A stretch of DNA of 51,386 nt from the NCBI GenBank assembly GCA_902764415.1, contig CACWVU010000016.1:1-51386 (forward strand), given 5' to 3'. The notes beneath the pieces are model-generated. The model saw only the letters and a list, made by a program, of their open reading frames with translations. It was not told where the DNA came from and did not search any database. The translations under genes and the position numbers were made by a program. Source of the DNA: an uncultured bacterium. GTDB lineage: Bacteria > Verrucomicrobiota > Kiritimatiellia > RFP12 > UBA1067. Below, in pieces: positions 5,819 to 19,358 of the stretch. The stretch's first letter is position 1; each line of letters opens with the position of its first letter.

Positions 5819-5866
5819 CCCAGTGTCTCTTCCGTTGCCGTTTCTCGCCAATGTCATTTGCAACGT

Positions 5867-5875
5867 ATTATACCA
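5867..5875 (-). promoter_or_regulatory. extended -10 promoter of metH
   Basis: On the minus strand the sequence reads TGGTATAAT, with a predicted start near 5860. This gives metH a leader of about 42 nt with a purine-rich ribosome site. Confidence 0.7.
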
Positions 5876-5964
5876 TAACTTCCGGCGTCAGGTTTGCCAA
5901 GGAGCCAAGTCATGTCTGGATATCGCAAGTGTACAAGATTTGCCCACTGGTGGCTAATTTATGA

Positions 5965-5970
5965 TATACT
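5965..5970 (+). promoter_or_regulatory. -10 box (TATACT) before the sigma-54 activator gene
   Basis: TATACT lies 31 nt before the preferred start at 6002 and is a plausible housekeeping -10. The -35 region is weak (TTGCCC about 19 nt upstream). The activator would thus be made constitutively at a low level. Confidence 0.45.
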
Positions 5971-6001
5971 ACCAAGCAATATGAAAAAGGAAGGCAAGAA
6001 C

Positions 6002-7498
6002 ATGGACAATCTCATCTTGACCGGCTGGGGCTGGAAGGAGTATGCCGTCTCCGCCGCCGTGACGCTGCGGGCGTTGAGCGGACAGGCGGATGTGATGGGC
6101 ATGAGCAAGCGGCGGCTCCCGGAGTTTCTTGAACTCGAAGGACGCGGATGGAAGCACATCTATCTCATCGGTCTCTCGCTCGGCGGGGACGAGGAGCGGC
6201 TCGCGGCGGCGTTGAAGTCCTTGCGTGGAACCAAGGTGACGTGGGTGAGCGCGCTCCCGATGAGCGACGAACAAGAGCGTCTGATTGCGCCGCTCCTCGA
6301 CGTGCGCAAGGTGGACGGCGAGCTGTTCAACGGCTCGCTTGTGAAGGCTGTAGGCAGTGTGTTCGGTGTCGATGTCGCCGATGTTCTGCCGTATGCTGTA
6401 GAGGGAGGCAAGGTCCCGAAGTCGGTACCGCAGTACCATGAGCTGATCTGCGCCGCCATGTACGCCTATCGAAACTACCGCGAGGAGGAGCCGTATGCGC
6501 AGGCGATTCGGTATCTTGCGAATGGCGTCCGGGAGGAGGCCTGGAGCGACAAGGCGCGAAAGCTTGTCGCGCACTACCGGAGGTACGGCAACCGCGAGCT
6601 GATAGGGAACAGCCAACAGATGAAGAATCTGCGCGAACGCATCAACTTCGTGGCGGCAAACCCGGATGCCCGCGTCCTCATCCTCGGCGAGAGCGGGACG
6701 GGCAAGGAGACGGTCGCTTTGCAGATCCACAACCGCTCTTCCCGCCGGACGGATCCGTTCTATGCCTTCAACTGCGCGAGTGTCGCGCCGCAGCTTCTCG
6801 AGAGCTGCTTCTTCGGACACGAGAAGGGATCTTTCACCGGCGCGGATAAGCAGAAGATTGGGCTTTTCGAGCTGGCGAATGGCGGTACGCTTTTCCTCGA
6901 TGAGATCGGCGAACTGCCGCTGGCAGCACAGGGAGTTCTCCTTCGCGTTCTGGAGGAGGGACGCTTCATGCGAGTGGGCGGTACGGAGGAGATCGAAACT
7001 GACGTGCGGCTCATTACGGCGACTAACAGAAACCTGCCGGCGCTTGTCCGCGAGGGGAAGTTCCGCGAAGACCTCTTCATGCGTCTCAACGTAGTGCCGA
7101 TCCGCATCCCGCCGCTCCGCGAGCGTCCGGAGGACATTGGCACAATCGCCGACAACTGGTGGTTTAATCACTTCCGCAAGCACCTCTCGGACGAGCAGAA
7201 GGCCGCTCTTGAGGCGTACTCCTATCCCGGCAACGTGCGCGAGCTGCTGAACATCCTTGAACGCGCCATCGTGTTCAAGGAGGACGACTTCGCAAAGCTC
7301 GTCGCCGAGCACCAGGAGTTAAGCGGTGAAATGCCGCGCCCCGACGACAACATTCCCGACGACCTCGATGAAGCTGTCCGGCGGCATGTCCGTCGTGTCT
7401 TCGAGAAGTACGCCCGCAACGCGTCGAAGGCTGCCACTGCGCTCAACATCACCCGCACTACCCTCCGCAAGTGGCTGCAAGAAAATAGCCATTCCTGA
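6002..7498 (+). CDS. sigma-54-dependent activator (bEBP) with unknown N-terminal sensor domain
   Basis: The 498-aa protein has three parts. Residues 1-200 form a sensor domain I do not recognise. Residues 200-440 form the AAA+ module, with Walker A GESGTGKE at 229-236, the sigma-54 contact loop GSFTGA at 276-281 (a known variant of GAFTGA) and Walker B TLFLDEIGEL at 296-305. A Fis-type helix-turn-helix occupies about 460-495. It should remodel RNA polymerase-sigma54 at the two identical -24/-12 promoters nearby. The N-domain has an alpha/beta pattern (HIYLIGLSL, then KVTWVSALP) resembling DHH phosphoesterases with the catalytic residues lost; this is a tentative reading. ATG 6002 has an AAGGAAGG site 7 nt upstream; in-frame ATG 5981 would be nearly leaderless. 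Confidence 0.88.
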   Translation: MDNLILTGWGWKEYAVSAAVTLRALSGQADVMGMSKRRLPEFLELEGRGWKHIYLIGLSLGGDEERLAAALKSLRGTKVTWVSALPMSDEQERLIAPLLDVRKVDGELFNGSLVKAVGSVFGVDVADVLPYAVEGGKVPKSVPQYHELICAAMYAYRNYREEEPYAQAIRYLANGVREEAWSDKARKLVAHYRRYGNRELIGNSQQMKNLRERINFVAANPDARVLILGESGTGKETVALQIHNRSSRRTDPFYAFNCASVAPQLLESCFFGHEKGSFTGADKQKIGLFELANGGTLFLDEIGELPLAAQGVLLRVLEEGRFMRVGGTEEIETDVRLITATNRNLPALVREGKFREDLFMRLNVVPIRIPPLRERPEDIGTIADNWWFNHFRKHLSDEQKAALEAYSYPGNVRELLNILERAIVFKEDDFAKLVAEHQELSGEMPRPDDNIPDDLDEAVRRHVRRVFEKYARNASKAATALNITRTTLRKWLQENSHS

Positions 7499-7553
7499 TT
7501 AGAAAATAATCACATCATGGCTACGAGACCCTGTTTCTGCGGGGCCTTATGCT

Positions 7554-7571
7554 TTGGCATGGATGTTGCTA
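7554..7571 (+). promoter_or_regulatory. sigma-54 (-24/-12) promoter, copy 1
   Basis: TTGGCATGGATGTTGCTA matches TGGCAC-N5-TTGCW with the GG and GC elements at the right spacing. The same 18 nt recur exactly at 17379-17396. The predicted +1 is 7581, one base before the ATG of the next gene. A possible activator site TGGCTAC lies at 7518-7524; its reverse complement lies at 17331-17337 before copy 2. Confidence 0.85.
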
Positions 7572-7581
7572 TATTGCGGGC

Positions 7582-8067
7582 ATGGGCATTGACGCAAAAG
7601 AACTGAACTCGCGCCTGTGGGCGGAGTGGAAGAACGGCATGAAGATCATGATGGGATCGCTGATGAAGGATTCCGTCGATTTGACCGGTTCGCTGTGTAC
7701 AACCGTTTTCGGCAACGAGAACTTTGTCCAGCGGGCTTTCATCTACATTCAGCGCAAGTCATACATTGGCAAGTTCAAGGACTACAAGACGCGCATCTCC
7801 GCCTACGAGACAACGGTCATGGAGTTGATCGAGCAAGTGAACAGGATGCTCGCGGGTGCCGCGCCGCGCGAGGGTGAGAGTGTCGCTTCTTGGGCGGCAA
7901 AGATTGAGTATAAAAGCACGCTCGCCGATATCATCATTGATGGCGACGACAGGTTGGAGAACGAGGACTGGGGCGACCATGCCATCGCCGCATTCGAGAA
8001 ACTGGGCGACTACCTGAACAACATCATGAACGTCCTCGAATCGGCGCAGAAGGGGATCGGGAAATGA
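7582..8067 (+). CDS. 161-aa protein of unknown function under sigma-54 control
   Basis: I do not recognise this soluble, helical protein. It is rich in Met, Lys and aromatic residues near its N-terminus (M-K-I-M-M-G) and has a mixed-charge C-terminal half, with no signal peptide or clear TM segment. The sigma-54 promoter predicts a transcript start at 7581, so ATG 7582 would be read from a nearly leaderless mRNA. The next in-frame ATG, at 7639, has GGAG 12 nt upstream and is the alternative start. Its stop codon overlaps the ATG of a 28-aa ORF. Placed directly after the activator gene, it is the primary target of that regulator and probably an effector or sensor of the response. Confidence 0.75.
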   Translation: MGIDAKELNSRLWAEWKNGMKIMMGSLMKDSVDLTGSLCTTVFGNENFVQRAFIYIQRKSYIGKFKDYKTRISAYETTVMELIEQVNRMLAGAAPREGESVASWAAKIEYKSTLADIIIDGDDRLENEDWGDHAIAAFEKLGDYLNNIMNVLESAQKGIGK

Positions 8068-8150
8068 GCGGAATGCTGAAACTGGAATTAAAGGCGCTAC
8101 TGCTTTTGCTGAAAGACATCGGTAAAAGGATCCTTTCAAGTTTAGACTAA
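8064..8150 (+). CDS. 28-aa amphipathic peptide, translationally coupled
   Basis: ATG 8064 overlaps the preceding stop as ATGA. The peptide has a Leu-rich core (ALLLLLKDIGKRIL) with Lys/Arg on one face, as in membrane-active amphipathic helices. It is too short to be certain, but the overlap and the codon-by-codon amphipathic pattern favour a real gene. It could be a membrane-binding sensor, a toxin-like peptide or a small subunit of the upstream protein. Confidence 0.45.
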   Translation: MSGMLKLELKALLLLLKDIGKRILSSLD

Positions 8151-8168
8151 CTGTCATAATCGCAGATA

Positions 8169-8177
8169 TGGTATAAT
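8169..8177 (+). promoter_or_regulatory. extended -10 promoter of the island
   Basis: TGGTATAAT ends at 8177, with a predicted +1 near 8184, one base before a 9-codon ORF and 35 nt before the AlbA_2-type gene. It gives the island an ordinary promoter separate from the sigma-54 unit. Confidence 0.65.
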
Positions 8178-8184
8178 ATACGCC

Positions 8185-8214
8185 ATGAAACAAAGCACCA
8201 AAAGGCGGACTTGA
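8185..8214 (+). CDS. 9-aa upstream ORF (MKQSTKRRT)
   Basis: The ORF begins one base after the predicted transcript start and stops 4 nt before the ATG of the next gene. Its position would allow translational coupling of a downstream gene that has only a weak ribosome site. It could equally be chance. A related sequence (about 22 of 31 bases) opens the small ORF at 10453. Confidence 0.3.
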   Translation: MKQSTKRRT

Positions 8215-8218
8215 AGCC

Positions 8219-9712
8219 ATGACAGCGCAAGAGCTTGAAATCGCGATAAGAGAACATGAAATGCAGCGGCTTGAACTGAAGGAATCGTTCAACGTCGAGT
8301 GCATTGAGGCTGCTTGCGCATTCGCTAACGCCTCCGGCGGCTATATTGTGCTTGGTGTGGACAACAATGGCAACCCCGCAAAGGCGCAGTTGCGCTTTGA
8401 GGCACTTCGCGACTATGAGAACCGTATCGCCACAGCAACCGAACCGTCCGTTTCCGTCGATGCCGAGAAAGTCGCTTTTCGCGATGCTACTGTCGTGGTT
8501 TTGAAGGTGCCGGAGAATCCACTTAAACCCGTTGCGTACAAGGGACGTTCATTCATGCGCAAGGGTAGCGTCAACCATCAGATGACTCCGGTCGAAATTG
8601 CCGAATGTCATTTGAAATCGACAGGCGCGAGTATGGACGCTGTGATTATGTCGGGCGTGACGCGCGCCGATCTCGATATGGACGAAGTGCGCAAGTACAT
8701 GGCAAAAGCCATCGCGGAGGGACGGCGGAATTTCTCGCAGAATGATGATCCTTGGCTTGTTCTGAATAAGCTTCAGCTGGTCAAGTCCGAAGCAGAAATA
8801 ACCAGAGCCGCCTGTCTTCTCTTCGCCAAAGAGCCGCAGATAATGTTTTCGCAGGCCATTATCCACGCAGGTGCGTTTAGGGATGAAGGCGCGTTGATAC
8901 TTGATAGTTGCGATGTCGGCGGGAATATTCAGAACCAAGTCGATAAGACGATAGAATTCATCAAGCGCAACATCAGGCGCAGCATTGTCGTGTCCGGCAA
9001 GGCAGAGCATGATCGCGTATGGGAATATCCAATTGAGGCGTTGAGAGAGACAATCACGAACGCGATATGTCACAGGGATTATTGCTCGCCGCATGACATA
9101 CAAATCAAAATACTGGAGGATCGGCTTGTCGTGATTAGCCCTGGGCTTTTGCCGTTTGACATGGGACTTGAAATGCTGGAGAATCCAGAACATGGTTCGC
9201 GTCCACGCAATAAGCTTGTTGCGCAGGTGTTCTACGACATGCACCTTATAGAGCATTATGGCAGCGGAACCCGGCGAATCAAGGACGAATGCCTTAAGAA
9301 TGGGAATAAACTTCCGAGATGGTCGCAGCAGTATGGCAGCTTCATTACGGTCTACGACTCCAGACTGAAGAAGGATGAGCCTCTAAATGAGCCGATAAAT
9401 GGACGCCCTGACACGATAAAAAGCGCGGATGGTACGATAAATGGCACGATGAACCGGCATGATGAGGTAGTAAACGGCTCAAATGAGGTTGTAAATGAGG
9501 TTGTAAGTGGGCATCGTGAGGTAGAAAATGAGGTAGCAAAAACAGTTCTTGAAGCTATAAAAACCAAACCGGGCATTAAGAAGCCTGAACTTCAGAAAAT
9601 TACAGGAAAGAGCCATGCGACGATAGAGAGAGCGGTAGATTTGCTCAAAAAGCTTTCTGAAATAGAGTATCGTGGAAGTGACAAGACTGGTGGCTACTAC
9701 GCAGTGAAATGA
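8219..9712 (+). CDS. AlbA_2 / HATPase-type putative transcriptional regulator (COG2865-like)
   Basis: The 497-aa protein starts with an AlbA_2 (Schlafen-type) domain at about 10-125, with the typical LELKES and FANASGGYIVLGVDN segments. A linker and a GHKL-like ATP-binding domain with ITNAICHRDY at about 276-285 follow. The C-terminus carries a winged-helix-like domain (KPELQKITGKSHATIERAV, about 445-475). Such proteins are often called ATP-dependent DNA helicase RecG-related or transcriptional regulators and are common on mobile islands and next to defence genes. Residues about 385-440 are low-complexity and encoded by a degenerate DNA repeat (EVVNEVV, GTINGTM). It is the first gene of the A+T-richer island. 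Confidence 0.82.
   Translation: MTAQELEIAIREHEMQRLELKESFNVECIEAACAFANASGGYIVLGVDNNGNPAKAQLRFEALRDYENRIATATEPSVSVDAEKVAFRDATVVVLKVPENPLKPVAYKGRSFMRKGSVNHQMTPVEIAECHLKSTGASMDAVIMSGVTRADLDMDEVRKYMAKAIAEGRRNFSQNDDPWLVLNKLQLVKSEAEITRAACLLFAKEPQIMFSQAIIHAGAFRDEGALILDSCDVGGNIQNQVDKTIEFIKRNIRRSIVVSGKAEHDRVWEYPIEALRETITNAICHRDYCSPHDIQIKILEDRLVVISPGLLPFDMGLEMLENPEHGSRPRNKLVAQVFYDMHLIEHYGSGTRRIKDECLKNGNKLPRWSQQYGSFITVYDSRLKKDEPLNEPINGRPDTIKSADGTINGTMNRHDEVVNGSNEVVNEVVSGHREVENEVAKTVLEAIKTKPGIKKPELQKITGKSHATIERAVDLLKKLSEIEYRGSDKTGGYYAVK
9373..9536. repeat. degenerate in-gene repeat (GATAAATGG / AATGAGGTTGTA units)
   Basis: Within the AlbA_2-type gene the linker is built from imperfect copies of short units, GATAAATGG first and then AATGAGGTTGTAA. 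The reading frame is kept. It parallels the intergenic repeats of other loci. Confidence 0.65.
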
Positions 9713-9725
9713 GGAGTTGTACAAA

Positions 9726-9783
9726 TGGCTTATCAAGTGGCTTATCAAGTGGCCCAGTCAAATGGCCCAGTCGTGGCCCAGTC
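9726..9783. repeat. short tandem repeats TGGCTTATCAAG x2 and TGGCCCAGTC x3
   Basis: Two exact 12-nt copies (9726-9749) are followed by three exact 10-nt copies (9750-9759, 9763-9772, 9774-9783). They sit immediately after the AlbA_2-type gene in a 188-nt gap with no convincing promoter. Confidence 0.8.
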
Positions 9784-9829
9784 AGGGACAAGTCGGGGGG
9801 ACAAGTTAGCTTTTGGTTCAAAGAGGCCT

Positions 9830-9851
9830 GACTCCACCCATGGGTGGAGTC
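9830..9851. promoter_or_regulatory. perfect 22-bp palindrome, possible operator
   Basis: GACTCCACCCA (9830-9840) is followed directly by its reverse complement, TGGGTGGAGTC (9841-9851), and then by a partial third half-site (GGGTGGAGTC, 9854-9863). It lies 50 nt before the next gene and after a regulator gene, so it could be that regulator's binding site. It might also be another repeat product. Confidence 0.5.
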
Positions 9852-9900
9852 GCGGGTGGAGTCGCAAATGCCAGATGCTGGCGCAGAAAGGAACGCACAA

Positions 9901-10449
9901 ATGACCGAGAAAGACAAACTGGCGTTGTGCAAGCCGCTTGCGACGGCAAAGCAAAAGCAGAGAAGCGTCAAAAACGGCAAGCGAAAGGATTGCAAGGGCA
10001 AGGTGTCGCGGACTATCACCTACGGCGTAACAGATCCCGGCAAGGATGGACCAGCTATCATGCGGACGATAGCCGACGAGTTGCCGCGCATCCATGATGC
10101 CATAGGCGACAGGATAGACAAGGTTGCAATTGATTGCCATTATTCAACTCAGTCCTCTCTCTCCTCGCCGTTTGAAGTGGATTACGACAAAACAACAAGT
10201 CTGCAAACTGATTTGAAGATAGGCGAATTCACAATCCGCACCAACTATCGCAACAGTGAATATGCCGATGAAGATTCTCGCAACATCAAGGCGATATTTG
10301 AGGAGCTGAGGCGGCTCCACCATGAACTTGGCGACCAGATAAGCGAGATAGATGACGATCCCGAAACGGCCAGCAGCGCATTGGAGGACATCCACGCCGA
10401 AATGGAAACGCAATTGGATGCTCTTGAAGAGGCGCTTGAAGAAGAGTAA
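9901..10449 (+). CDS. 182-aa protein with internal helical repeat, unknown function
   Basis: I do not recognise a family. ATG 9901 has AAAGGAA 8 nt upstream; the open frame extends further up but only through repeat DNA. The N-terminal ~40 residues are strongly basic. Two copies of a motif I..EL.RIH..GD.I appear (ADELPRIHDAIGDRIDKV and FEELRRLHHELGDQISEI), which suggests a duplicated helical unit. The C-terminus is a strongly acidic coiled coil ending in Glu runs. The basic head and acidic tail fit a nucleic-acid or partner-binding scaffold. Confidence 0.6.
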   Translation: MTEKDKLALCKPLATAKQKQRSVKNGKRKDCKGKVSRTITYGVTDPGKDGPAIMRTIADELPRIHDAIGDRIDKVAIDCHYSTQSSLSSPFEVDYDKTTSLQTDLKIGEFTIRTNYRNSEYADEDSRNIKAIFEELRRLHHELGDQISEIDDDPETASSALEDIHAEMETQLDALEEALEEE

Positions 10450-10452
10450 GCG

Positions 10453-10557
10453 ATGAAACGAAGTTCTCCAAGGCAGGCTCGAAAAAGCGTACCGCAACGG
10501 ATTCGTGCCGCTGCATCTTGTGTTTCTTGTCCTTTGGGGAAAGGGTTGGATAAATGA
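10453..10557 (+). CDS. 34-aa basic ORF coupled to the next gene
   Basis: ATG 10453 lies 3 nt after the preceding stop, and the stop at 10555-10557 overlaps the next ATG as ATGA. The product is Arg/Lys/Ser-rich with two Cys near the end. The overlap and tight spacing suggest translational coupling through the operon. No family is recognised, and it may be a decayed fragment. Confidence 0.3.
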   Translation: MKRSSPRQARKSVPQRIRAAASCVSCPLGKGLDK

Positions 10558-11819
10558 TGGATCTTGAGTCTGAATTACTTTCCGCATCCCAGAAGGTGGG
10601 TGACGCCTTTCGTGTGCAAGACCGTCTGATGGGCAATGCTGCGAATAGCCTTTCCGTCGTTTCGCACAATGTAGATGTGCTAACCTCCGAAACGACGCGC
10701 ATGTGCGAGTTGAGTTCCAACCCGCAGCGCACGATAAAAGAAATAGACGATGAGTTTTGTCGTATAACAGGTCTGAACAAAACTGATTTTGTTTTTCTAG
10801 CGATTGCTACGGCCTTTCAAACTGCCCGATGGATCATTATCGACTGTATGACAGATTTTGGGTCTGGTGCTGAAAGAGACGAGCGAATTGACCACAACGA
10901 TAAATCAATCAAGGATGCGGAGGGCGAATCTATAGATTCAACGGTTGACCGGTTGAAGGACCCGCAGGACATGCGTTATAGAAGCGATGTTATCCGCGGC
11001 AGAACATGGACTGAGATATTGTCGGAGCCTGTTCCGTTTGACGTAATCGATGGTTCGGCAGACTTTGATCTTGGAATGAGCGGTAGGAATCATCGTGAAA
11101 TGACATTGGGACACGATCCTATCCTTGGGTGGTTTTTTGGCACAATCAATATTCTGACAGATACGACAACCCTTAAGAATGTAAAAACATTTATAATGAC
11201 ACGTCAGCCCCGACTTCGCTTTTCAAGAAAAACCACCTTTACAGAAGCGCTGAGGTCTGCATATGCTAGTTGCAGAATTGACAAGAAAAGGTTGTCGGCT
11301 GCTATTGCCATGGAAGCCATACATCTGAAGTCAGATTTCTTTTCCAAAGCAGGATTACCAATCCCAGTCATTACCGCTATACTTCCAGACCTGTCATCAT
11401 CGCTTTATAAAGAAAATTATGACGCTCTTTGTCTTGCAAAAGACATTGGGATTGTTGCATTGCAAGCTAAGACGGCTATCTTGATCAATATTGTAATAGC
11501 ACAGTTGCATGGATATTTCTTTGACGAGAACAAGTACCCATCTAGGGAAGTGTTTGAGGTTAAAACGCGCAAAATACTTCTTTATTCAAATATCATTGCT
11601 GAGTCGTCAAATGTGATTTCGGTTGCAATTCGCAGTCTGCTTGGTGATGTAAAAGCATGGAAACATCTTGATTTTGGAGGGCTGCTCGTATTGCTTTGGC
11701 GGATCATTAAGGATGTAGATTTCATGTACAAAGTTCGCGAGGACTATGTATCTAATAAGTTCAAGGAGATCGTAGTAGGAGATTACGAAAAGCGGCTCTG
11801 GCCGCTAAAGGAGAACTGA
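10554..11819 (+). CDS. 421-aa conserved unknown with NHREMTLGHDP motif
   Basis: The function is unknown. The central segment SGRNHREMTLGHDP followed by ILGWFFGTINILTD resembles a motif I recall from unnamed proteins encoded on accessory islands of anaerobic Firmicutes and Bacteroidetes; this is recollection, not a search. His and Asp in HR..TLGHDP could bind metal. The C-terminal half is rich in hydrophobic helices (AKTAILINIVIAQLHGYFF, LLVLLWRIIKDVDFMY), so it may associate with membranes. The next gene starts after a single base with a good AAGGAG site, so the two products are made together. Confidence 0.6.
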   Translation: MMDLESELLSASQKVGDAFRVQDRLMGNAANSLSVVSHNVDVLTSETTRMCELSSNPQRTIKEIDDEFCRITGLNKTDFVFLAIATAFQTARWIIIDCMTDFGSGAERDERIDHNDKSIKDAEGESIDSTVDRLKDPQDMRYRSDVIRGRTWTEILSEPVPFDVIDGSADFDLGMSGRNHREMTLGHDPILGWFFGTINILTDTTTLKNVKTFIMTRQPRLRFSRKTTFTEALRSAYASCRIDKKRLSAAIAMEAIHLKSDFFSKAGLPIPVITAILPDLSSSLYKENYDALCLAKDIGIVALQAKTAILINIVIAQLHGYFFDENKYPSREVFEVKTRKILLYSNIIAESSNVISVAIRSLLGDVKAWKHLDFGGLLVLLWRIIKDVDFMYKVREDYVSNKFKEIVVGDYEKRLWPLKEN

Positions 11820-11820
11820 A

Positions 11821-13671
11821 ATGGAAGACACAACTAAAGGTGGCCTAGTTGCAGGAGGTGTTGTTGCTCTCCTCGGAGCTATTGCAACGTTTGTCGCATA
11901 CAAGCAAGGGCATGCGTCTGGACATACAGATGGCCTTGCGGAAGGTTTTAGTCTCGCAGAAGAGAAATTCAAAGGACTCAAGGAGAAGTACGAAGAACTA
12001 CAAGAGCAAATTAGAAGGCTCAAAGAGTTCAAGGTGCAAATAGAGCAAGAGCGCGATGGTTCGCGAGCGATGGTTGGCGAGTTGTACAACCTTCTTAAAG
12101 ACCGTCGGCTCATAAATGATGAGTTATATAATAAACTCGTTAATGACCTCTGGGGAGGTAAGATTGATGGCTTCTCAGAAATAATTGATGCCGCAATTAA
12201 TGCGGAACAAGAGGCATTCAATGTAATTAACGGTGGTGCTGGGAAAGGTATGGTCACTCACAAGAGGAACGTGGAGGAAAAAGAGCATGTCTATGATTGT
12301 TACGAATTCCGCATTTCTTTCTCTGATGCTATTAGGGGAATATATGAGTATCCTCCTTTTGAAGAAGTAATCCTGCCGCCTGACGGCATGTTGTTATCTT
12401 CTCCAAAGTTGTTAGCGAGAGTAAAAGAACTTATTCCTGGATGGCGTTTTGACCTTCGCGAAGGAAGGCAATTGCGAGACACCGTTGCTGGGCTTGATTT
12501 TCGAAATGGGGTACATTCGGACAAGCAGGCAAAGGAGAAGTATGACTATGAATGCATATGCAAAAATGCCTTACGCGAGCTGGAAGGTCAGTATGTCCTT
12601 TGTAACAAGGTAAAATTTAGCAGTAAATTCTCATGGGATTCCGTCTCTGCATCGGGAGGATCAAATGAGTTGGACTATGAACATGGAGTCGTTACAAGCG
12701 AATGGCTAGATAATTATATTAGGCAAAAGTGTAGAGAAGTTCGGGATGCGACATCGGCATTCCTCTCCATGCTTTCTGTCGCAGATAAAGAAAGGCTGAC
12801 GCGAAATCAATCTGTCTTAAATGCTATAACAAAGAATCAGTCGCTATCGGGGACTATAGACTTTGTTGACAATTCTCCGTACGTTCGTTTTAGTGATGAC
12901 ATATGTGTCCGCCTTGTGATTCCGAATTTGGCGATATATTTTGAAGGAGATAATTTTGGCGTACACACAAATGATGATCTCCGTCGCGAATTACACGACC
13001 TTATACCTGACTGGAATGACATGCCCATTTCTGATTCGCGGATTGACAAAATGTTGAGTAGTTTCCGCAATGTGTGGAATCGCAAAAGTCATCCACTTCC
13101 GGCAGAAGGAGCGATTAGGCAGTTTTTGCGATTCAAAGACGCAGCAGAAGTTCTGTGCGACAAAGCGCTACGTGATATGGTTGGTGAACAGATAACATGT
13201 CAATCGGTAGAGTTAAAACGAACTGATGGAGTTATCTCTGAATTTTCTTTAGCGCATAGTTCAGAAGTTGAGAAGATGCTTTGCGATGCTGTTGCCAGAG
13301 TGCAAGAGAGATTGAATGAGTTGGCAAAATCACGAAACGCGGTTTTGTATTGTTACGGCGACTTGTTCCCGGAATTGAAAACACCCCGCTATTATGAAAA
13401 ATGGAGAGTGTTTGACAAGACGGCAAACATGCCGCAACTTCGTGTAGGGGACATTGTCAATGGTGTCGTTCGCAATATCAAAGAATATGGTGCTTTCATT
13501 GACTTCGCTGGTACAAGTGGGTTGCTGCACATAAGTGAAATCAGTAACGTCTTCATCAAGGACATAAATGCATTCTTAAAAATTGGCCAGAGCGTTGAGG
13601 TTAAGATAATTGGTATAGACGCAGCCAAAGGCCATATTAGCCTTAGCATGAAACAGTTGAAAAGTTCTTAG
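11821..13671 (+). CDS. membrane-anchored coiled-coil protein with duplicated core and C-terminal S1 RNA-binding domain
   Basis: The 616-aa protein starts with a Gly/Ala-rich TM helix (about 7-26) and then a coiled coil (about 45-90). The core appears duplicated. LIPGW with CKNALRELEGQYVLCNKV in the first copy matches LIPDW with CDKALRDMVGEQITCQSV in the second. The last ~75 residues are a canonical S1 domain (VGDIVNGVVRNIKEYGAFID, GLLHISEIS, ISLSMKQL) as in ribosomal S1 and PNPase. An S1 domain tethered to the membrane is unusual and suggests RNA sensing or RNA anchoring. It lies between the 421-aa unknown and the EEP nuclease. Confidence 0.75.
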   Translation: MEDTTKGGLVAGGVVALLGAIATFVAYKQGHASGHTDGLAEGFSLAEEKFKGLKEKYEELQEQIRRLKEFKVQIEQERDGSRAMVGELYNLLKDRRLINDELYNKLVNDLWGGKIDGFSEIIDAAINAEQEAFNVINGGAGKGMVTHKRNVEEKEHVYDCYEFRISFSDAIRGIYEYPPFEEVILPPDGMLLSSPKLLARVKELIPGWRFDLREGRQLRDTVAGLDFRNGVHSDKQAKEKYDYECICKNALRELEGQYVLCNKVKFSSKFSWDSVSASGGSNELDYEHGVVTSEWLDNYIRQKCREVRDATSAFLSMLSVADKERLTRNQSVLNAITKNQSLSGTIDFVDNSPYVRFSDDICVRLVIPNLAIYFEGDNFGVHTNDDLRRELHDLIPDWNDMPISDSRIDKMLSSFRNVWNRKSHPLPAEGAIRQFLRFKDAAEVLCDKALRDMVGEQITCQSVELKRTDGVISEFSLAHSSEVEKMLCDAVARVQERLNELAKSRNAVLYCYGDLFPELKTPRYYEKWRVFDKTANMPQLRVGDIVNGVVRNIKEYGAFIDFAGTSGLLHISEISNVFIKDINAFLKIGQSVEVKIIGIDAAKGHISLSMKQLKSS

Positions 13672-13698
13672 AAATCGATCACGGACAACTTTGTTGAT

Positions 13699-14664
13699 AT
13701 GTCCTATACGATACTGTCATTCAACATGAGAAACGTCGGCGGGGGAGCGCTGATGAACCGTGACTGGAATACGGTGGCGGACATCATGCGTGACACGCGG
13801 GCGGACATCGTGGCAGTTCAGGAGGTGTTCAGCGAGACCCCCCTAAAACTGCAACTGTGTCAGCGCCTAAATGCCGGATTTCTCTGCGACTGGCGGTATC
13901 GCTGTGTCTCTCGCCAGACTTGCCGCAACATACGTGGCGAGGGGTATGCGTTCTTGTGGAATGCTCGGCGTGTCGATCTTTCCCCAAATGAAAAGGTCAT
14001 TGGCGGCAATCGCGTAGTTGTCGGCGTACACGAGCCGGAGATTCGCACGGAATGGAGTCGTTCGCTTGTGCGCCCGCCGTGTGTAGCCCGCTTTATCCCT
14101 GTTGGGTGGTGTGTTCCCTTCATCGAACTGCGCGTTATCTCGACGCACATTATCTTTGGCGAGGACAAATACTCGCGTGATAGGGGCAATGATCTGTCTG
14201 ACAAGGAAATGCGGCTTGCCGAATATCGGGCGTTGTCCGAAAGGCTGTTTCCGCGCGTCTGCAAAGACCGTTCCGACGGCAATTTCCGAACGCCATATAC
14301 ATTCATTGCGGGGGATTACAACCTTTTGCAGGGGGAATGTTCTGTGATTGATGGACTTCCCAAGGAAGAGGTTGCTTTCATGAAAACGCGACAGATTCTC
14401 GCCTCGACGATAACGCAAGGCGATGACAGCAGCCCCGGTCACTATACCGACCATGACTACGACCATTTCTCGCATTCTGATCGAGAGCATCAATACATTC
14501 ATGGTGTGGAACGGATTGATGCGCCGACAAGGTATTATGGTGGAGACTTCAAGAAGTACGGACAAAAGATGTCCGACCATGTGCCGGTCGCAATGCAATT
14601 TAACGTAGGATCATCAAATCTAGAGCATGTCATGCTTGGAAAAACAACGGAGGAAATCAAATGA
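13699..14664 (+). CDS. endonuclease/exonuclease/phosphatase (EEP, DNase I-like) family protein
   Basis: The 321-aa protein has the EEP catalytic pattern: N9 in SFNMRN, E42 in AVQEV, STHI mid-protein, D206 and N208 in AGDYN, and D293-H294 in SDHVPV. Family members cleave phosphodiester bonds of DNA, RNA or phosphoinositides with Mg2+. No signal peptide is visible, so it should act inside the cell. No clear ribosome site precedes ATG 13699. Its stop overlaps the next ATG (ATGA), tying it to the 742-aa gene. In this operon it is the only protein with an obvious destructive activity and so the likely effector. Confidence 0.85.
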   Translation: MSYTILSFNMRNVGGGALMNRDWNTVADIMRDTRADIVAVQEVFSETPLKLQLCQRLNAGFLCDWRYRCVSRQTCRNIRGEGYAFLWNARRVDLSPNEKVIGGNRVVVGVHEPEIRTEWSRSLVRPPCVARFIPVGWCVPFIELRVISTHIIFGEDKYSRDRGNDLSDKEMRLAEYRALSERLFPRVCKDRSDGNFRTPYTFIAGDYNLLQGECSVIDGLPKEEVAFMKTRQILASTITQGDDSSPGHYTDHDYDHFSHSDREHQYIHGVERIDAPTRYYGGDFKKYGQKMSDHVPVAMQFNVGSSNLEHVMLGKTTEEIK

Positions 14665-16889
14665 ACCTTAAGTTGCTGTTCGGGGATCGTCCGACGGATG
14701 ATGAGAAGCGTAAGGCAGCGATGGTGCTCAATCTTTGCGCCACTTCAATCTCGCGCATAATTGCGTCAAACGACATGGAGGTACTTGATGTCGAGTACAA
14801 CGCCATTCTGAACAACCTGAATCTTCAGAATATGATCAAGGATGAGTCGTTGCTCTCTACGTTCAAGTCCATTCTCGACACGATAACGTTCTATCGGTTG
14901 CAGGCTGGCGACAGAAAGAGAGCGGAGGTTCGGTACCAGCAGAAACTGAACAGCGCGATATGGAGTGTAGGGCAGCAGGGCACCTGCATTCTCTTTGCGC
15001 CAACAAATGCGTGGGCTGCGATTTCAGGGGCGATAATGGCTGTAGGGGCGTTCTGCAATTATAAAAAGACCAAGTCGGACGCAAGAGTAGCCTATGAGGA
15101 TGAACTTTGGAAACTGGAACGTTCGCTGATCGAACAGCTCCACGCGCTTCGTTATTCGCTGTTTGAAACTGCATGGCGTTTGTCCAGTAAATATGATTTC
15201 GCGGACGCTTGGCGCCTGACGATTCCGCAAATCGAACAGTATAATCAAATTCTTGACGAACCAGATGCGGCTTGGCGATACTTCCGTCTGGCTCAATACA
15301 AGGAAAACTTTGAGGCATATCCGTATTATTGGAATGAGTTGGGGGAAAGTGCCTTCATTGCGGCAAACAAGGATGGAATAGATGAAGCAATACGAAACGA
15401 TTTTCTCGCCAAAGCCGAAGCTGCATTTGAAGCGTTTGTGTCCAAGGACGCACGACTTTTGCGCGAGGACATGATTGCTGCCGCAGCCCGTTTGCGGCGC
15501 GTTCAAATTGCCGTGTTGCGGGGGAAGACTTGGGAGGAGTCTGTCGACGGTCAGTTCGGATTTTTGCACGATCTTAAGTCGCTTGCCTGTAGCGCACCAG
15601 ACCTTCTGATGCAGGCGGCAATATTTTATGCGTCTGCATATGAGTCTGGAAAGTCGAAAAGACATTTGGACGCGGCAATTGGACTCATGGAGATGGTTGT
15701 CGCACAGGGGTATGACCAGCCAACGTCATCGCGCCTTTTGAGCAAGATGTACCTTTTGGGCGGTGATGATCGGGAATGTGATTATGCCAATTTACTTGCC
15801 AGATTTGGTCATGCAGGTGTTATAAAGAACGGTGATAATGCTGCACAGATTTTGGTAGAAGCAGATTCATCTGATGTGAAGGAGGGGCTAAGGCGGGTGC
15901 TTTCTCGTCAATTTGATTTGGCGAAACGAGTGTCAAATGGTGGATTGTTTGTCGGCGATGCTGCTACAGTTGATGCCAAGATAGAAAAGTACATTGCTTC
16001 AAAGAGTCTAAGGTTGGATGCTTCTGTCAAAGATATGTTGACGTTGCTATGGGTTGACATAAAGCAGGCATTGAATGCTCAAATGAGGCTTGTAGTAGAG
16101 AAGATTGGCGTGAACAGAGAGCATGTGAAAGAAGTAGCCTGTGCCCTTAATGCAAATGTCGTAAAGGAAATCAATGAGTATAGTGGTAATGTGAGCGAAT
16201 GGGTATCTCAGAAAGGCCGCACTGTTCAGCAACAAAGAGGATTGAACAGGCTTGTTAATCATGCAGAGGAAGCTTTTGTTGAAGGCCTTGTAAGAGCAGC
16301 CGACTTGACATTTGATTTGAAACGAATGGATGACATTATGTCTGTCAGTGATGGCATATCGGCGGTAGAGAGGGAACTGGCCATAATTATGAGAAAGCTT
16401 GGTGTTTCTGCTGGTGAGGGCGGACGCATTGAATCGGAAGACTTTTTCACGTCTGAGGTTTCTGTTGAAAATGTCAAGGAATTGAAATGGGCAGAATATC
16501 AATCTGATCCATCCATTGGTGAAAAGTTGATGCGAGACAAACGTAGCTTCCGTGTTCTTCTTGAGAGTATGAAAGATGTTGTACCCGCTTCATGGAGACT
16601 AGAAGAAGAACTTGAGCGCATGAACTATAAAGTACGTGTTTATACTCAAGGGACATTCCTTGCGGCATGCAATGTTTGGGGCGCGGCTGTGTTTGTGGCG
16701 CACCGACTTTGCACAATGAACCCTGACTATGAAGTGATTCGCTACCCAAGAAGCATTGAAGTCCGATATATGCTTGATTCAATAGATGACACAAGTGAAG
16801 ACAACAGTACAGCCAAAAAAATTGCTGACGATGTGTGTCATGATGTAAAAGGTGTTTGGCATTTTGTCACCGATATTTTTAAAGGATGA
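14661..16889 (+). CDS. 742-aa protein of unknown function with a hydrophobic segment
   Basis: No family is recognised. Most of it is helical. A hydrophobic stretch at about 107-133 (ILFAPTNAWAAISGAIMAVGA) could insert in or touch a membrane. The middle has a TPR-like flavour (repeated amphipathic helices around FLAKAEAAFEAFVSKDARLL and AIFYASAYESGKSKRHLD). The C-terminus is mixed alpha/beta. It starts inside the stop codon of the nuclease gene, so fixed stoichiometry with the nuclease is likely; an inhibitor, sensor or scaffold of the nuclease is possible. Base composition is visibly poorer in G+C than the core genes. Confidence 0.65.
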   Translation: MNLKLLFGDRPTDDEKRKAAMVLNLCATSISRIIASNDMEVLDVEYNAILNNLNLQNMIKDESLLSTFKSILDTITFYRLQAGDRKRAEVRYQQKLNSAIWSVGQQGTCILFAPTNAWAAISGAIMAVGAFCNYKKTKSDARVAYEDELWKLERSLIEQLHALRYSLFETAWRLSSKYDFADAWRLTIPQIEQYNQILDEPDAAWRYFRLAQYKENFEAYPYYWNELGESAFIAANKDGIDEAIRNDFLAKAEAAFEAFVSKDARLLREDMIAAAARLRRVQIAVLRGKTWEESVDGQFGFLHDLKSLACSAPDLLMQAAIFYASAYESGKSKRHLDAAIGLMEMVVAQGYDQPTSSRLLSKMYLLGGDDRECDYANLLARFGHAGVIKNGDNAAQILVEADSSDVKEGLRRVLSRQFDLAKRVSNGGLFVGDAATVDAKIEKYIASKSLRLDASVKDMLTLLWVDIKQALNAQMRLVVEKIGVNREHVKEVACALNANVVKEINEYSGNVSEWVSQKGRTVQQQRGLNRLVNHAEEAFVEGLVRAADLTFDLKRMDDIMSVSDGISAVERELAIIMRKLGVSAGEGGRIESEDFFTSEVSVENVKELKWAEYQSDPSIGEKLMRDKRSFRVLLESMKDVVPASWRLEEELERMNYKVRVYTQGTFLAACNVWGAAVFVAHRLCTMNPDYEVIRYPRSIEVRYMLDSIDDTSEDNSTAKKIADDVCHDVKGVWHFVTDIFKG

Positions 16890-16954
16890 TCTGCCGCGCC
16901 ACCTTCGATGGGTCAGAGTTACTTGGCACACACATGACAAGGAATTGAGAAGAT

Positions 16955-17059
16955 TTGGAAGGCGACGACGTCAAGAAGCGGCTGAAGAAGCGCGAGGATA
17001 TGTTCTTGCGGCGGCTGATGGGGATGCTTGCGAGAAAACTAAAACCCAAGGGGAAGTGA
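16955..17059 (+). pseudogene. 34-codon basic ORF, possible 3' remnant of a gene
   Basis: The reading from TTG 16955 gives a highly basic helix (VKKRLKKREDMFLRRLMGML, ending KLKPKGK) and stops 2 nt before the pspC-like ATG. No ATG start exists and an in-frame stop lies just upstream. It looks like the tail of a gene whose front was lost when the island inserted, or a small protein with a weak start. The region 16890-16954 before it holds nothing else I can identify. Confidence 0.35.
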
Positions 17060-17060
17060 A

Positions 17061-17327
17061 ATGCCAAACTTCTACAGAAGCAGCGATGAAAAGGTGATTG
17101 CGGGCGTGTGCGCGGGAATTGCGCGGCGGCTTGATGGCGGTGCATTGAGGGCTGGGATGACTGGCTGGACTGGCGAGACTGGCGTGGGGACGCTGGGGAC
17201 GGAAGCGACTTTCGCCCGTCACGCTCGTTGCTCCGGCCCCGCCGGTCATCCAGCTGCCAGTCCCGCACGCCCCACCAGTCTCGCGGTCATTGCTTATGCT
17301 GATGATATTTTGTCCATCGGTGGTTGA
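17061..17327 (+). pseudogene. broken PspC-like gene
   Basis: The first ~25 residues (MPNFYRSSDEKVIAGVCAGI, then ARRLDGG) match the start of the PspC phage-shock domain, which normally continues into a hydrophobic helix. Here the frame runs instead into Gly/Thr-rich repeat-encoded sequence and ends without a TM helix. A long imperfect inverted repeat (17147-17295) occupies the place of the missing helix. PspC normally senses or transmits membrane stress. A relic of it next to sigma-54 genes suggests an ancestral psp-like membrane-stress locus. Confidence 0.6.
17147..17295. repeat. large imperfect inverted repeat in the pspC relic
   Basis: The left arm carries GGACTGGCGAGACTGGCG and GTGGGG. 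The right arm carries CCCCACCAGTCTCGC at 17270-17284, its near-perfect complement (GCGAGACTGG at 17173-17182). Further partial matches on both arms (GATGACTGGC against GCCGGTCATC) suggest a hairpin around 150 nt long. It may be a non-autonomous element or a repeat-expansion product. Confidence 0.55.
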
Positions 17328-17378
17328 TTTGTAGCCACACGATGCGTTGGTCATCTTGATTTCATGCCGATTTCGGTC

Positions 17379-17396
17379 TTGGCATGGATGTTGCTA
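17379..17396 (+). promoter_or_regulatory. sigma-54 (-24/-12) promoter, copy 2
   Basis: This is identical over 18 nt to 7554-7571. The predicted +1 is near 17406. It drives the mini-ORF, small TM protein and FtsK-type gene. The flanking DNA differs from copy 1, so the identity is confined to the promoter itself, as expected for selection on one regulon. Confidence 0.85.
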
Positions 17397-17408
17397 ATGT
17401 GCTAGTGT

Positions 17409-17453
17409 ATGTTTGACTACATCAGAGCAAAGAAGAAAGGACAGGCGCGATGA
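17409..17453 (+). CDS. 14-aa upstream ORF (MFDYIRAKKKGQAR)
   Basis: It starts about 3 nt after the predicted sigma-54 transcript start and its TGA overlaps the ATG of the 46-aa gene. This is the same layout (near-leaderless mini-ORF coupled to a gene) seen at 8185. A coding function is uncertain. Confidence 0.3.
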   Translation: MFDYIRAKKKGQAR

Positions 17454-17590
17454 AGTGGGTGGATGGCCTGAAAGCGTCTGCGGCGGCGTTCAAGGATTGG
17501 GGGCGCATGCTTACAATCATTGGCAGCGTCATGGCCGGATCGCTTGTTGTCATCGCCCTTGAACTATTCGTCATTTGCCTTAAAATCTGA
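17450..17590 (+). CDS. 46-aa single-pass membrane protein
   Basis: A short amphipathic N-terminus (MKWVDGLKASAAAFKDWGRM) leads into one strong TM helix (about 21-44) ending in Lys-Ile. AAAGGA lies upstream as ribosome site. It is separated by 11 nt from the FtsK-type gene, whose product lacks any TM segment, so it is well placed to be its membrane anchor or sensor. Small TM proteins are also typical of phage-shock operons. Confidence 0.65.
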   Translation: MKWVDGLKASAAAFKDWGRMLTIIGSVMAGSLVVIALELFVICLKI

Positions 17591-17601
17591 AAGGAGAAAC
17601 C

Positions 17602-18714
17602 ATGAGAACCAATATCACCGTTGACACCGATACAATTCGTCGGCTTCATGAGATTGCAGATGCGCTTGCCGCGCCGTTTTCGGCGGATGCGCAGAGCGTT
17701 CGGCGTCTGCACGAACTCGCCCGCGAAATCACATCGCTTGCGGATTCCATCGGACGGCACGAGGGGGTGGATTTCGCCGAGACGTGGCCTGAATCCCTTG
17801 ATCCGAAAGAGGCGCAGAGGATGCTGTTGCCGCTCTATCTCGGCATGACATCGCAAGACGAGAAACTGATTGTCGATCTTGCGCGACTGCCACATCTGCT
17901 CGTCAGCGGTGCAAGCGGGCAGGGCAAGTCGAATCTGCTCAACTGCATCATCAGCGGTCTTGCCCGACTTCTACCGCCTGAACAGCTCCGTTTCGTACTC
18001 TTTGATCCGAAGTGCGTGGAATTCTTACAATACTCGGCATTGCCGCATCTGGCATTCCCCGTGATAACCGATGGTGCCAAGTTCGTGTATGTTCTCCGCT
18101 GGCTCGTTTGCGAAATGGATAAGCGTCTGAAGGAGTTTGCCAGAGCCTCTTGCCGAAACATCGAGGACATCCGCAAGGCCGGAAACCAGATGCCGTACCT
18201 TGTTGTCATCATAGACGAGATCGTGGACTTGATGCAGAATTTCGGCAAGGAGGTCGAGCCGCTTATTGCACGGCTTACCGCACTCGCCCGTGCCGCCGGA
18301 ATCCATCTCGTGGTTGCAACGCAAGTTGCCGACCACAAAGTGCTGTCTGCAACCCTCCGCTGCAATCTTCCAGGACGGATTGCGTTCAAGACCTACAGTG
18401 AATCGGAATCGAAGCTAATCATCGACGCCCCAGACGCCGATGTTCTGTGCGCTCCCGGCGATATGCTCGTGCGACAGAAGGACGGGACGCTTGCCCGCGC
18501 TCAATGCGCGTATCTCTCCGGGGAAGAAGAGGCGCGGATTATTGAGGCAGTCGAAAAGCGGCACGGTAGTCCCAAGTTTCTGGCGTTGCTTCCCGATGTC
18601 GTGTTCCATGCGGCACCAGAGCCGCAACCCGACACAGACGGCCCGAGCGAAGAAGATGTCATCGGACCGCAGATTGGCGCACAGCCCAGGGAGATCTTGG
18701 TTTTGCCACAGTAA
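17602..18714 (+). CDS. FtsK/SpoIIIE-type DNA translocase motor without membrane domain
   Basis: The 370-aa protein has Walker A GASGQGKS at 103-110 and Walker B VVIIDE at 201-206. The flanking FDPK and LARAAGIHLVVATQ segments are typical of FtsK-HerA motors that track along double-stranded DNA. The 4-TM N-domain and long linker of FtsK are absent, and no gamma (wHTH) domain is obvious. The first 50 residues hold two copies of a (D/Q)(T/S)xRRLHE(I/L)A motif, perhaps an oligomerisation or partner-binding repeat. It has a good ribosome site (AAAGGAG) and is under sigma-54 control. It is probably an accessory translocase of a stress or defence response rather than the cell-division protein. Confidence 0.8.
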   Translation: MRTNITVDTDTIRRLHEIADALAAPFSADAQSVRRLHELAREITSLADSIGRHEGVDFAETWPESLDPKEAQRMLLPLYLGMTSQDEKLIVDLARLPHLLVSGASGQGKSNLLNCIISGLARLLPPEQLRFVLFDPKCVEFLQYSALPHLAFPVITDGAKFVYVLRWLVCEMDKRLKEFARASCRNIEDIRKAGNQMPYLVVIIDEIVDLMQNFGKEVEPLIARLTALARAAGIHLVVATQVADHKVLSATLRCNLPGRIAFKTYSESESKLIIDAPDADVLCAPGDMLVRQKDGTLARAQCAYLSGEEEARIIEAVEKRHGSPKFLALLPDVVFHAAPEPQPDTDGPSEEDVIGPQIGAQPREILVLPQ

Positions 18715-18797
18715 AGAAATATTTGACTTTAGAAGGAATGCTCTGAAAGTTGGTATAAAACGCAAGATACCTTTAAGAGAAATGATGAAATTTGACG

Positions 18798-19358
18798 TCA
18801 GGGCGCGGTTGCGGGCTTTACGCCGATGACGGCGCTGACGGACTTGGAGGGGACCATTAGGAGCGAGTCGGTGAGCGAGACGCCGACCTTGCGCGGGGCG
18901 TCGAGAAGCGCGAGCAGCTCGCGCTGGGCGGCGAGCGGGAAGTCGGCGTAGCCGGGCGAGTAGCGCGCGACGAGCGACTCGCCGGGGGCGAGCTCGGCGC
19001 GGATGTCGTCCTCGATGGAGTCCATCACCTTCTCGATCGCCGCGGCGCCGATGGCCTGGACGACGAGCGCGTCCGCGGCGGACTTGACCGTGACCTGGCG
19101 GTGCCAGGCGTCGAAGGGCGCGCCGAGGGTGCCGCAGGCGAGGTAGGCGTCGCGGCAGCCGGCGAGGCGGAGGGAGAGCGCCTTCGACGTCTCCAGCCAG
19201 CCGCCCGGGACCGCGATGCGCCGCCAGGTCCGCGTCGGACGCGCCGCCGCGAGCGCCTCCTCCGTTAGCGCGGCGATGCGCGCGGCGAGGGCGGCGCCGG
19301 GCTCGCGGCCGCCGCCCATGCGCAGGTAGGGCAGGACGTCTGCTGGCGCGACGGTCAT
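18798..19358 (-). CDS. stand-alone methionine synthase reactivation domain
   Basis: The 186-aa protein matches the AdoMet-binding activation domain of MetH. The C-terminal segment MVPSKSVSAVIG is the domain's hallmark, and the YSPGYADFPL segment is also typical. It should reductively methylate inactive cob(II)alamin on the short MetH encoded at 3410-5818. Its ATG overlaps the metF stop (ATGA), so it is co-translated with the enzyme that makes the methyl donor. Split MetH systems of this kind are known in Thermotoga and some anaerobes. Confidence 0.87.
   Translation of the reverse strand: MTVAPADVLPYLRMGGGREPGAALAARIAALTEEALAAARPTRTWRRIAVPGGWLETSKALSLRLAGCRDAYLACGTLGAPFDAWHRQVTVKSAADALVVQAIGAAAIEKVMDSIEDDIRAELAPGESLVARYSPGYADFPLAAQRELLALLDAPRKVGVSLTDSLLMVPSKSVSAVIGVKPATAP

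Follow-up and report, generated by a model that had tools for sequence, protein, structure and literature searches.

Introduction

The control of phage-defence induction in bacteria is poorly understood. The closest described activators are RtcR and the RtcR/PspF-like activators of sigma-54, built of CARF, AAA and helix-turn-helix (HTH) domains, which in the consulted portions of the reports are linked to restriction-modification systems and CoCoNuTs (PMC4012209, PMC11090510); PspF itself is described there as AAA and HTH domains only (PMC4012209).

The window analysed here, 51,386 nucleotides (nt) in length, is one entire contig from the 2.6-Mb genome of an uncultured gut bacterium. An initial annotation had noticed in it a gene for a bacterial enhancer-binding protein (bEBP) and two identical 18-nt promoters of the -24/-12 type, along with genes for a 161-aa protein, a 28-aa peptide, a 46-aa protein and an FtsK-like ATPase, all of which we find present. 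We consider it moderately probable that this activator, through a predicted DHH-like nucleotide sensor, induces genes by way of the two matched promoters within a probable phage-defence island; that the activator and the two promoters form a local sigma-54 regulon, as the annotation had proposed, appears well supported, and is strengthened by a palindrome at -59 and by synteny in relatives. Comparisons were made with 114 genomes of the family and with 387 genomes sampled from the phylum, where L and G denote loci and genomes; the labels L023/L107, L024/L108 and L027/L103 are double, and L106 is G058.

Two promoters matched in core and upstream element

The elements concerned are the following.

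6002..7498, forward strand: sigma-54 activator (bEBP), with a predicted DHH-fold sensor (residues 1-195), an AAA+ domain with the loop GSFTGA (residues 200-367) and an HTH-like C-terminal end
7496..7512, no strand assigned: putative upstream activating sequence, palindrome 1, TGATTAGAAAATAATCA, at -59 from the TGG of the -24 element and overlapping the bEBP stop codon
7529..7544, forward strand: terminator-like hairpin 3' of the bEBP gene, between palindrome 1 and promoter 1
7554..7571, forward strand: sigma-54 promoter 1, exact 18-mer, -24/-12 element
17321..17337, no strand assigned: putative upstream activating sequence, palindrome 2, TGGTTGATTTGTAGCCA, likewise at -59
17379..17396, forward strand: sigma-54 promoter 2, exact 18-mer, -24/-12 element

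Shuffled sequence would be expected to give 0.03 matches to the 18-mer even with 3 mismatches allowed, and the genome contains these two exact copies only, plus 4 further sites at 3 mismatches, the reversed control pattern giving 1. The genome also encodes rpoN, whose sigma-54 DNA-binding domain was found at G000:C4:47832-48302 (E=1.4e-51), so that rpoN, -24/-12 promoters and a putative upstream site, the sequence attributes of a sigma-54 activator system, occur together. A start codon follows each promoter, as had been annotated: that of the 161-aa gene begins 11 nt past the last base of the first 18-mer (window 7572-7582), and that of a 14-codon leader 13 nt past the last base of the second (window 17397-17409), which distances, given the usual spacing between a sigma-54 promoter and its transcript start, predict nearly leaderless mRNAs from both. 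The leader is longer in relatives such as L026 and L025, and contains a stretch resembling a ribosome site.

The annotation had held the surroundings of the two promoters to differ and their identity to be confined to the 18-mer, but the flanks share the palindrome at -59. Its pattern, TGRYT-N7-ARYCA, was derived by eye from the upstream DNA of eight related promoters; in 67 promoters scanned it was exact in seven (both window promoters, L025a, L026, L106, L108 and L103), always at this same position, which amounts to 7/8 promoters of this activator group versus 0/59 others. L107 and L109, further promoters of the group, have the promoter variant TTGGCACACTTCTTGCTA; they stood outside the pattern-deriving set and carry a palindrome with one mismatch, likewise at -59. 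Off the promoters, one more copy lies in the window (22603), and none was found in 15 control regions or in 342 control upstreams. Because the upstreams of window promoters W1 and W2 share only 34% identity across 125 nt, the match of their palindromes is not explained by plain descent of the region in its entirety. The support that is independent of the choice of pattern resides in the fixed spacing, in L107 and L109, and in the absence elsewhere. These promoters, palindromes and spacings, like the synteny and the empty site described below, are read directly from the DNA. The hairpin is weak evidence alone, the scan having found 9 such sites versus 11.8 expected by chance; richer hairpins stand at the equivalent position in L108, L025 and L026.

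In its Y/R form the 18-mer is present at 31 sites, spread over 19/114 family genomes, with none for the reversed control. Of these sites, 16 have a related activator within 15 kb, a distance expected to take in less than 1% of the sequence (0.64%, assuming 2.9 Mb per genome); moreover, 16/19 of the carrier genomes possess a related activator versus 34/95 of the others. Among other activator groups the palindrome was found in none of 26 strict promoters within 125 nt, and 9/21 promoters had two TGAKC-like direct repeats 19 bp apart, at about -67/-48; one genome, G064, holds both enhancer kinds (C78 and C16). Paralogous activators share a common core promoter and, so far as the motifs indicate, likely differ in their enhancers, so that one cell could accommodate several regulons of this kind. 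The region L087:3900-15100 contains four sigma-54 promoters, one of them upstream of the activator gene itself (a possible autoregulation), with genes read as FtsK-like, AAA, macro, PLD and GmrSD proteins.

The activator and its predicted sensor

The AAA+ sigma-54 interaction domain of the bEBP matches PF00158 at 2.6e-66, and its GSFTGA loop corresponds to GAFTGA in the 71-row consensus. For the count of core-promoter sites near related activators given above, 71 of 78 activator rows were typed, seven short or duplicate fragments being omitted, which left 50 genomes rather than 53. The related sensor class was matched in 53/114 family genomes and 46/387 phylum-sample genomes. For the N-domain the prediction is a fold like that of the DHH phosphoesterases, the closest structural matches of the model being of the DHH family (the PAP phosphatase/RecJ/Cdc45 fold). 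Across 57 N-domains, one of which is the window's own, the motifs LilTGWGw.eY, G.sL.Gd and WiSal are conserved and no catalytic DxD or DHH motif stands in the conserved strand ends, from which absence we infer a loss of catalysis; such a domain, if the modelled fold is right, likely senses a nucleotide.

The AAA-HTH part is closest to RtcR_PspF2 in PADLOC, and the bEBP scores 281.9 bits with the RtcR model, which likeness, together with the S1 and EEP domains in the island and the MoxR-vWA and DUF932 genes behind the same promoter kind in L025 and L024, would suit an RNA-damage response in which the activator sensed RNA ends, the targets mended or cleared RNA, and the N-domain were a divergent CARF and not DHH. 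We regard that reading as unlikely, since the score lies below the cut-off of 650 and the match begins only at residue 190, since the N-domain lacks a Pfam match and its top structural matches, ranked without a direct CARF comparison, are DHH-family, and since no rtc gene was among the ten window proteins scanned, rtcB not having been sought genome-wide.

A variable island in defence-rich company

Comparison with the flanks of relatives delimits an island of ~13.0 kb (window 5803-18817). In G094 the site is empty: the bases matching window 5802 and 18818 stand 41 bp apart between flanks 96-98% identical, with metH and a gene read by eye as its reactivation partner on the two sides. In G086 about 1.1 kb bearing another gene fills the gap, the left border falling at 5891 and the flanks being 97-99% identical except for one short stretch. 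Because the site is empty in the one and filled with other cargo in the other, the ~13.0 kb constitute a variable insertion. The Pfam scan of ten window proteins showed no integrase. The metH-adjacent gap is an insertion hotspot (window 5803-18817; L212; L211).

To describe the neighbourhoods we took up to four same-strand genes downstream of each activator and one upstream (the first six genes for L106), omitting proteins >1200 aa. From 44 loci tried, 38 yielded proteins, to which five window genes were added as a 39th locus; L111, L112, L162 and L165 had no clean activator open reading frame (ORF), and L102 and L148 no protein under the rule. The control comprised 128 of 150 listed proteins around RecJ/NrnA genes, from 14/15 regions. 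GmrSD_N was the commonest Pfam family near the activators, with 13/136 proteins in 9/39 loci (window included), versus at most 1/128 in the control, where it was missing from the 25 families listed, whose tail has one member each. PLD, Macro, AAA and STAND were other neighbour families. Two dynamin-like GTPase genes stand in tandem beside a DHH-type activator at L090:6251-9661, and further neighbours include a PIF1 helicase (L100) and a PD-(D/E)XK protein (L098).

The variability of the site, the Schlafen block's own promoter, and the want of a known role for the 161-, 28- and 46-aa proteins would also accord with an ordinary accessory island, in which a metabolic or stress activator merely sat in a hypervariable, defence-collecting hotspot and had no control over defence genes. 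We hold this to be rather improbable, inasmuch as GmrSD genes turn up again next to distant members from outside the class (L146, L151-L153, L156, L158 and L159) and sigma-54 promoters precede a MoxR-vWA operon, FtsK-like genes and AAA genes in other loci. The phage-shock-like membrane-stress regulon that the initial annotation had favoured, to which the 28-aa amphipathic peptide, the 46-aa hydrophobic protein and the pspC fragment beside promoter 2 lend some colour, is very improbable, because the bEBP misses the PspF cut-off (245.6 vs 443.55 bits) and has a 195-residue sensor fused to it, the pspC gene is a relic not found in the G058 counterpart stretch, and the neighbourhoods are defence-rich.

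Several observations weigh against a defence regulon governed by a DHH-like sensor. The N-domain gave no sequence-profile match to DHH and belongs to no Pfam family. The copies of the palindrome are partly non-independent by descent, W1/L025a/L108, W2/L106 and L107/L109 being orthologous sets, and L025b, the remaining promoter of the group, has one-mismatch palindromes at -69 and -92 and none placed at -59. The PADLOC models matched, 143 near the activators vs 36 in the control, form an inflated tally, in which one family is counted through repeated models; the comparison is with a rough control, and PDC-S23 occurs in both sets; the window's own matches consist of a partial BnzB and of SspH and pAgo/Aga through widespread domains. 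A sigma-70 scan of the window did not list the promoter block at 8140..8180 that we describe below. Finally, 15/31 core-promoter sites are away from any related activator, some of them ahead of ClpB- or CTP synthase-like genes, so that the 18-base core is a general sigma-54 promoter and not confined to this regulon. Genes read by eye as ClpB, CTP synthase and CpaB stand behind the core in L058, L073 and L076, which belong to other genomes.

Genes behind the two promoters

The following frames stand directly behind the promoters.

7582..8067, forward strand: 161-aa helical protein, predicted (near-)leaderless, with three long helices (predicted local-distance difference test 84.8)
8064..8150, forward strand: ORF for a 28-aa amphipathic peptide that is coupled through ATGA to the 161-aa gene; relatives in L026, L107 and L108
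17409..17453, forward strand: 14-codon leader MFDYIRA..., with an ATGA overlap with the 46-aa ORF
17450..17590, forward strand: 46-aa protein with one hydrophobic stretch, transmembrane by eye
17602..18714, forward strand: FtsK/SpoIIIE-type ATPase, 370 aa (PF01580 1.7e-40; PADLOC SspH 4.9e-48 through the same domain)

Our gene calls agree with those of the initial annotation, and Pfam recognised the sigma-54 activator, SLFN_AlbA_2 with HATPase_c_4, S1, EEP, a PspC piece and FtsK_SpoIIIE. The 161-aa protein has 153 relatives and no family in Pfam, PADLOC or other profile scans; its gene is present in 6/114 family genomes (two partial) and in 1/387 phylum-sample genomes, which one is the window's own. 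Of the linkage looked for in relatives, that of activator, sigma-54 promoter and 161-aa gene is kept (L025, L026, L027/L103, L107), but that of the FtsK-like gene is loose: such genes occur in other activator loci, L087 (twice) and L105, but in G058 the gene after the orthologous 46-aa ORF is another ATPase. In L108 the 161-aa gene comes after a DUF932 gene, and in L109 only its first codons are left. The G058 46-aa protein, behind the same promoter, shares 36/46 residues, and the leader there is a longer, Cys-rich version. MoxR-vWA and DUF932 genes lie behind the same promoter kind in L025 and L024. Contigs stop within 0.5 kb behind the 161-aa gene or inside it in 4/5 loci (L023/L107, L024/L108, L026, L027/L103), as if the downstream content were strain-variable. 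L107 and L108 have no Schlafen cassette at this place, and what comes next after their 28-aa ORF is a predicted protein rich in Gly and Ala, MNE..LSDMKTWFSDMKENPE... (last ~350 bases, reverse strand); in the window, the end of the 28-aa ORF meets the Schlafen block.

The Schlafen block and the relics

Between the two promoters the window contains the following.

8140..8180, forward strand: block GTTTAGACTAACT...ATGGTATAATATA, a sigma-70-like extended -10 ahead of the Schlafen gene; both parts in the window, L025 and L106
8219..9712, forward strand: Schlafen/AlbA_2 + HATPase_c_4 protein (Pfam; PADLOC pAgo/Aga models 2e-18 via shared domains)
9844..10449, forward strand: 201-aa protein; a frame in the corresponding position of L025 matches it with 86% identity over 182 residues
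10554..11819, forward strand: BnzB-like protein (C-terminal half of the model, PADLOC 1.3e-27); relative in L106
11821..13671, forward strand: 616-aa protein with a C-terminal S1 RNA-binding domain (Pfam)
13699..14664, forward strand: endonuclease/exonuclease/phosphatase-family (EEP) protein (PF03372 3.9e-6); relatives in L025 and, weaker, in L106 (1.6e-6)
14661..16889, forward strand: 742-aa protein of no family; relatives in L025 and L106
16958..17065, forward strand: TerB-DnaJ gene relic (tblastn 1.2e-12), intact in G058
17061..17327, forward strand: pspC relic (PF04024 over 23 residues), directly after the TerB-DnaJ relic

The order in L025 is Schlafen, ~200-aa, EEP and 742-aa relative, with BnzB and S1 absent; in L106 it is Schlafen, 217-aa, EEP-like and 742-aa relative, then BnzB and S1; in the window the latter two sit between the ~200-aa and EEP genes. 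In G058 the Schlafen block begins one contig and the activator ends another, which contigs we infer to join. Since the promoter block stands ahead of the Schlafen gene in the window, L025 and L106, and since L109 keeps the -10 part alone at another junction, the Schlafen cassette brings a sigma-70-like start of its own and looks as though it can be exchanged; by reason of that promoter, the Schlafen/BnzB/S1/EEP block is likely expressed at a basal level, as a cassette that was inserted behind promoter 1. In the L109:2342 region the cassette -10 meets the 161-aa gene about 20 codons into the frame, a natural cassette junction. Of the regulon said to bracket ~10 kb, the two promoters stand, but the intervening ~9 kb has a promoter block of its own, and sigma-54 control there would perhaps come by read-through from promoter 1. 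The annotated pspC relic is indeed a fragment, though the TerB-DnaJ relic precedes it, whose intact counterpart in L106 matches TerB at 6e-11 and DnaJ at 3.8e-8; no pspC was found in the G058 stretch.

Proposed mechanism

Upon binding its ligand, the activator would hexamerise on the palindrome at -59 and loop to the sigma-54 RNA polymerase. The opening of promoter 1 would yield the 161-aa and 28-aa proteins, with transcription perhaps running on into the Schlafen operon, and that of promoter 2 the 46-aa protein and the FtsK-like ATPase. More tentatively, a degenerate DHH phosphoesterase of the PAP-phosphatase/RecJ/Cdc45 fold might serve phylum-wide as the nucleotide sensor of sigma-54 immune regulons, with a common core promoter, a private enhancer for each paralog, and swappable defence cassettes behind a ready inducible promoter. 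A sensor class near defence genes, with enhancer and promoter sites mapped, renders the trigger directly testable; the DHH fold suggests as candidate ligands pAp, pApA, nanoRNA and DNA ends, a choice drawn from familiar DHH substrates and from abstracts.

Comparison with known systems

From the DHH phosphoesterases (PAP phosphatase, RecJ) and Cdc45 the window domain differs in being fused to a sigma-54 activator, in having no DxD or DHH motif and in escaping detection by sequence; among the matches listed in the open-access literature, subscription papers lying outside that scope, none described a sigma-54 activator with a DHH-fold sensor. The window shares with the Bunzi anti-phage system a BnzB-like gene, but only the C-terminal half of BnzB was matched (1.3e-27), and no BnzA appeared at E 0.1 among the ten window proteins, which also gave no match to McrBC/CoCoNuT or rtcBA models. 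As in the MoxR-vWA systems, so far as the consulted part of their description goes (PMC7159879), MoxR (bpMoxR) and vWA genes occur behind such a promoter, albeit in the relative L025 and not in the window; the words 'sigma', 'DHH' and 'RtcR' do not occur in the main text retrieved for that paper. The nearest likeness, within the portions of the reports cited above, is to the CARF-AAA-HTH activators, which are likewise sigma-54 AAA+ activators with an N-terminal sensor beside defence genes that are their predicted targets. The novelty of the present locus would lie in the same logic being served by a different predicted sensor, DHH-like in place of CARF, with both enhancer and promoters mapped by sequence.

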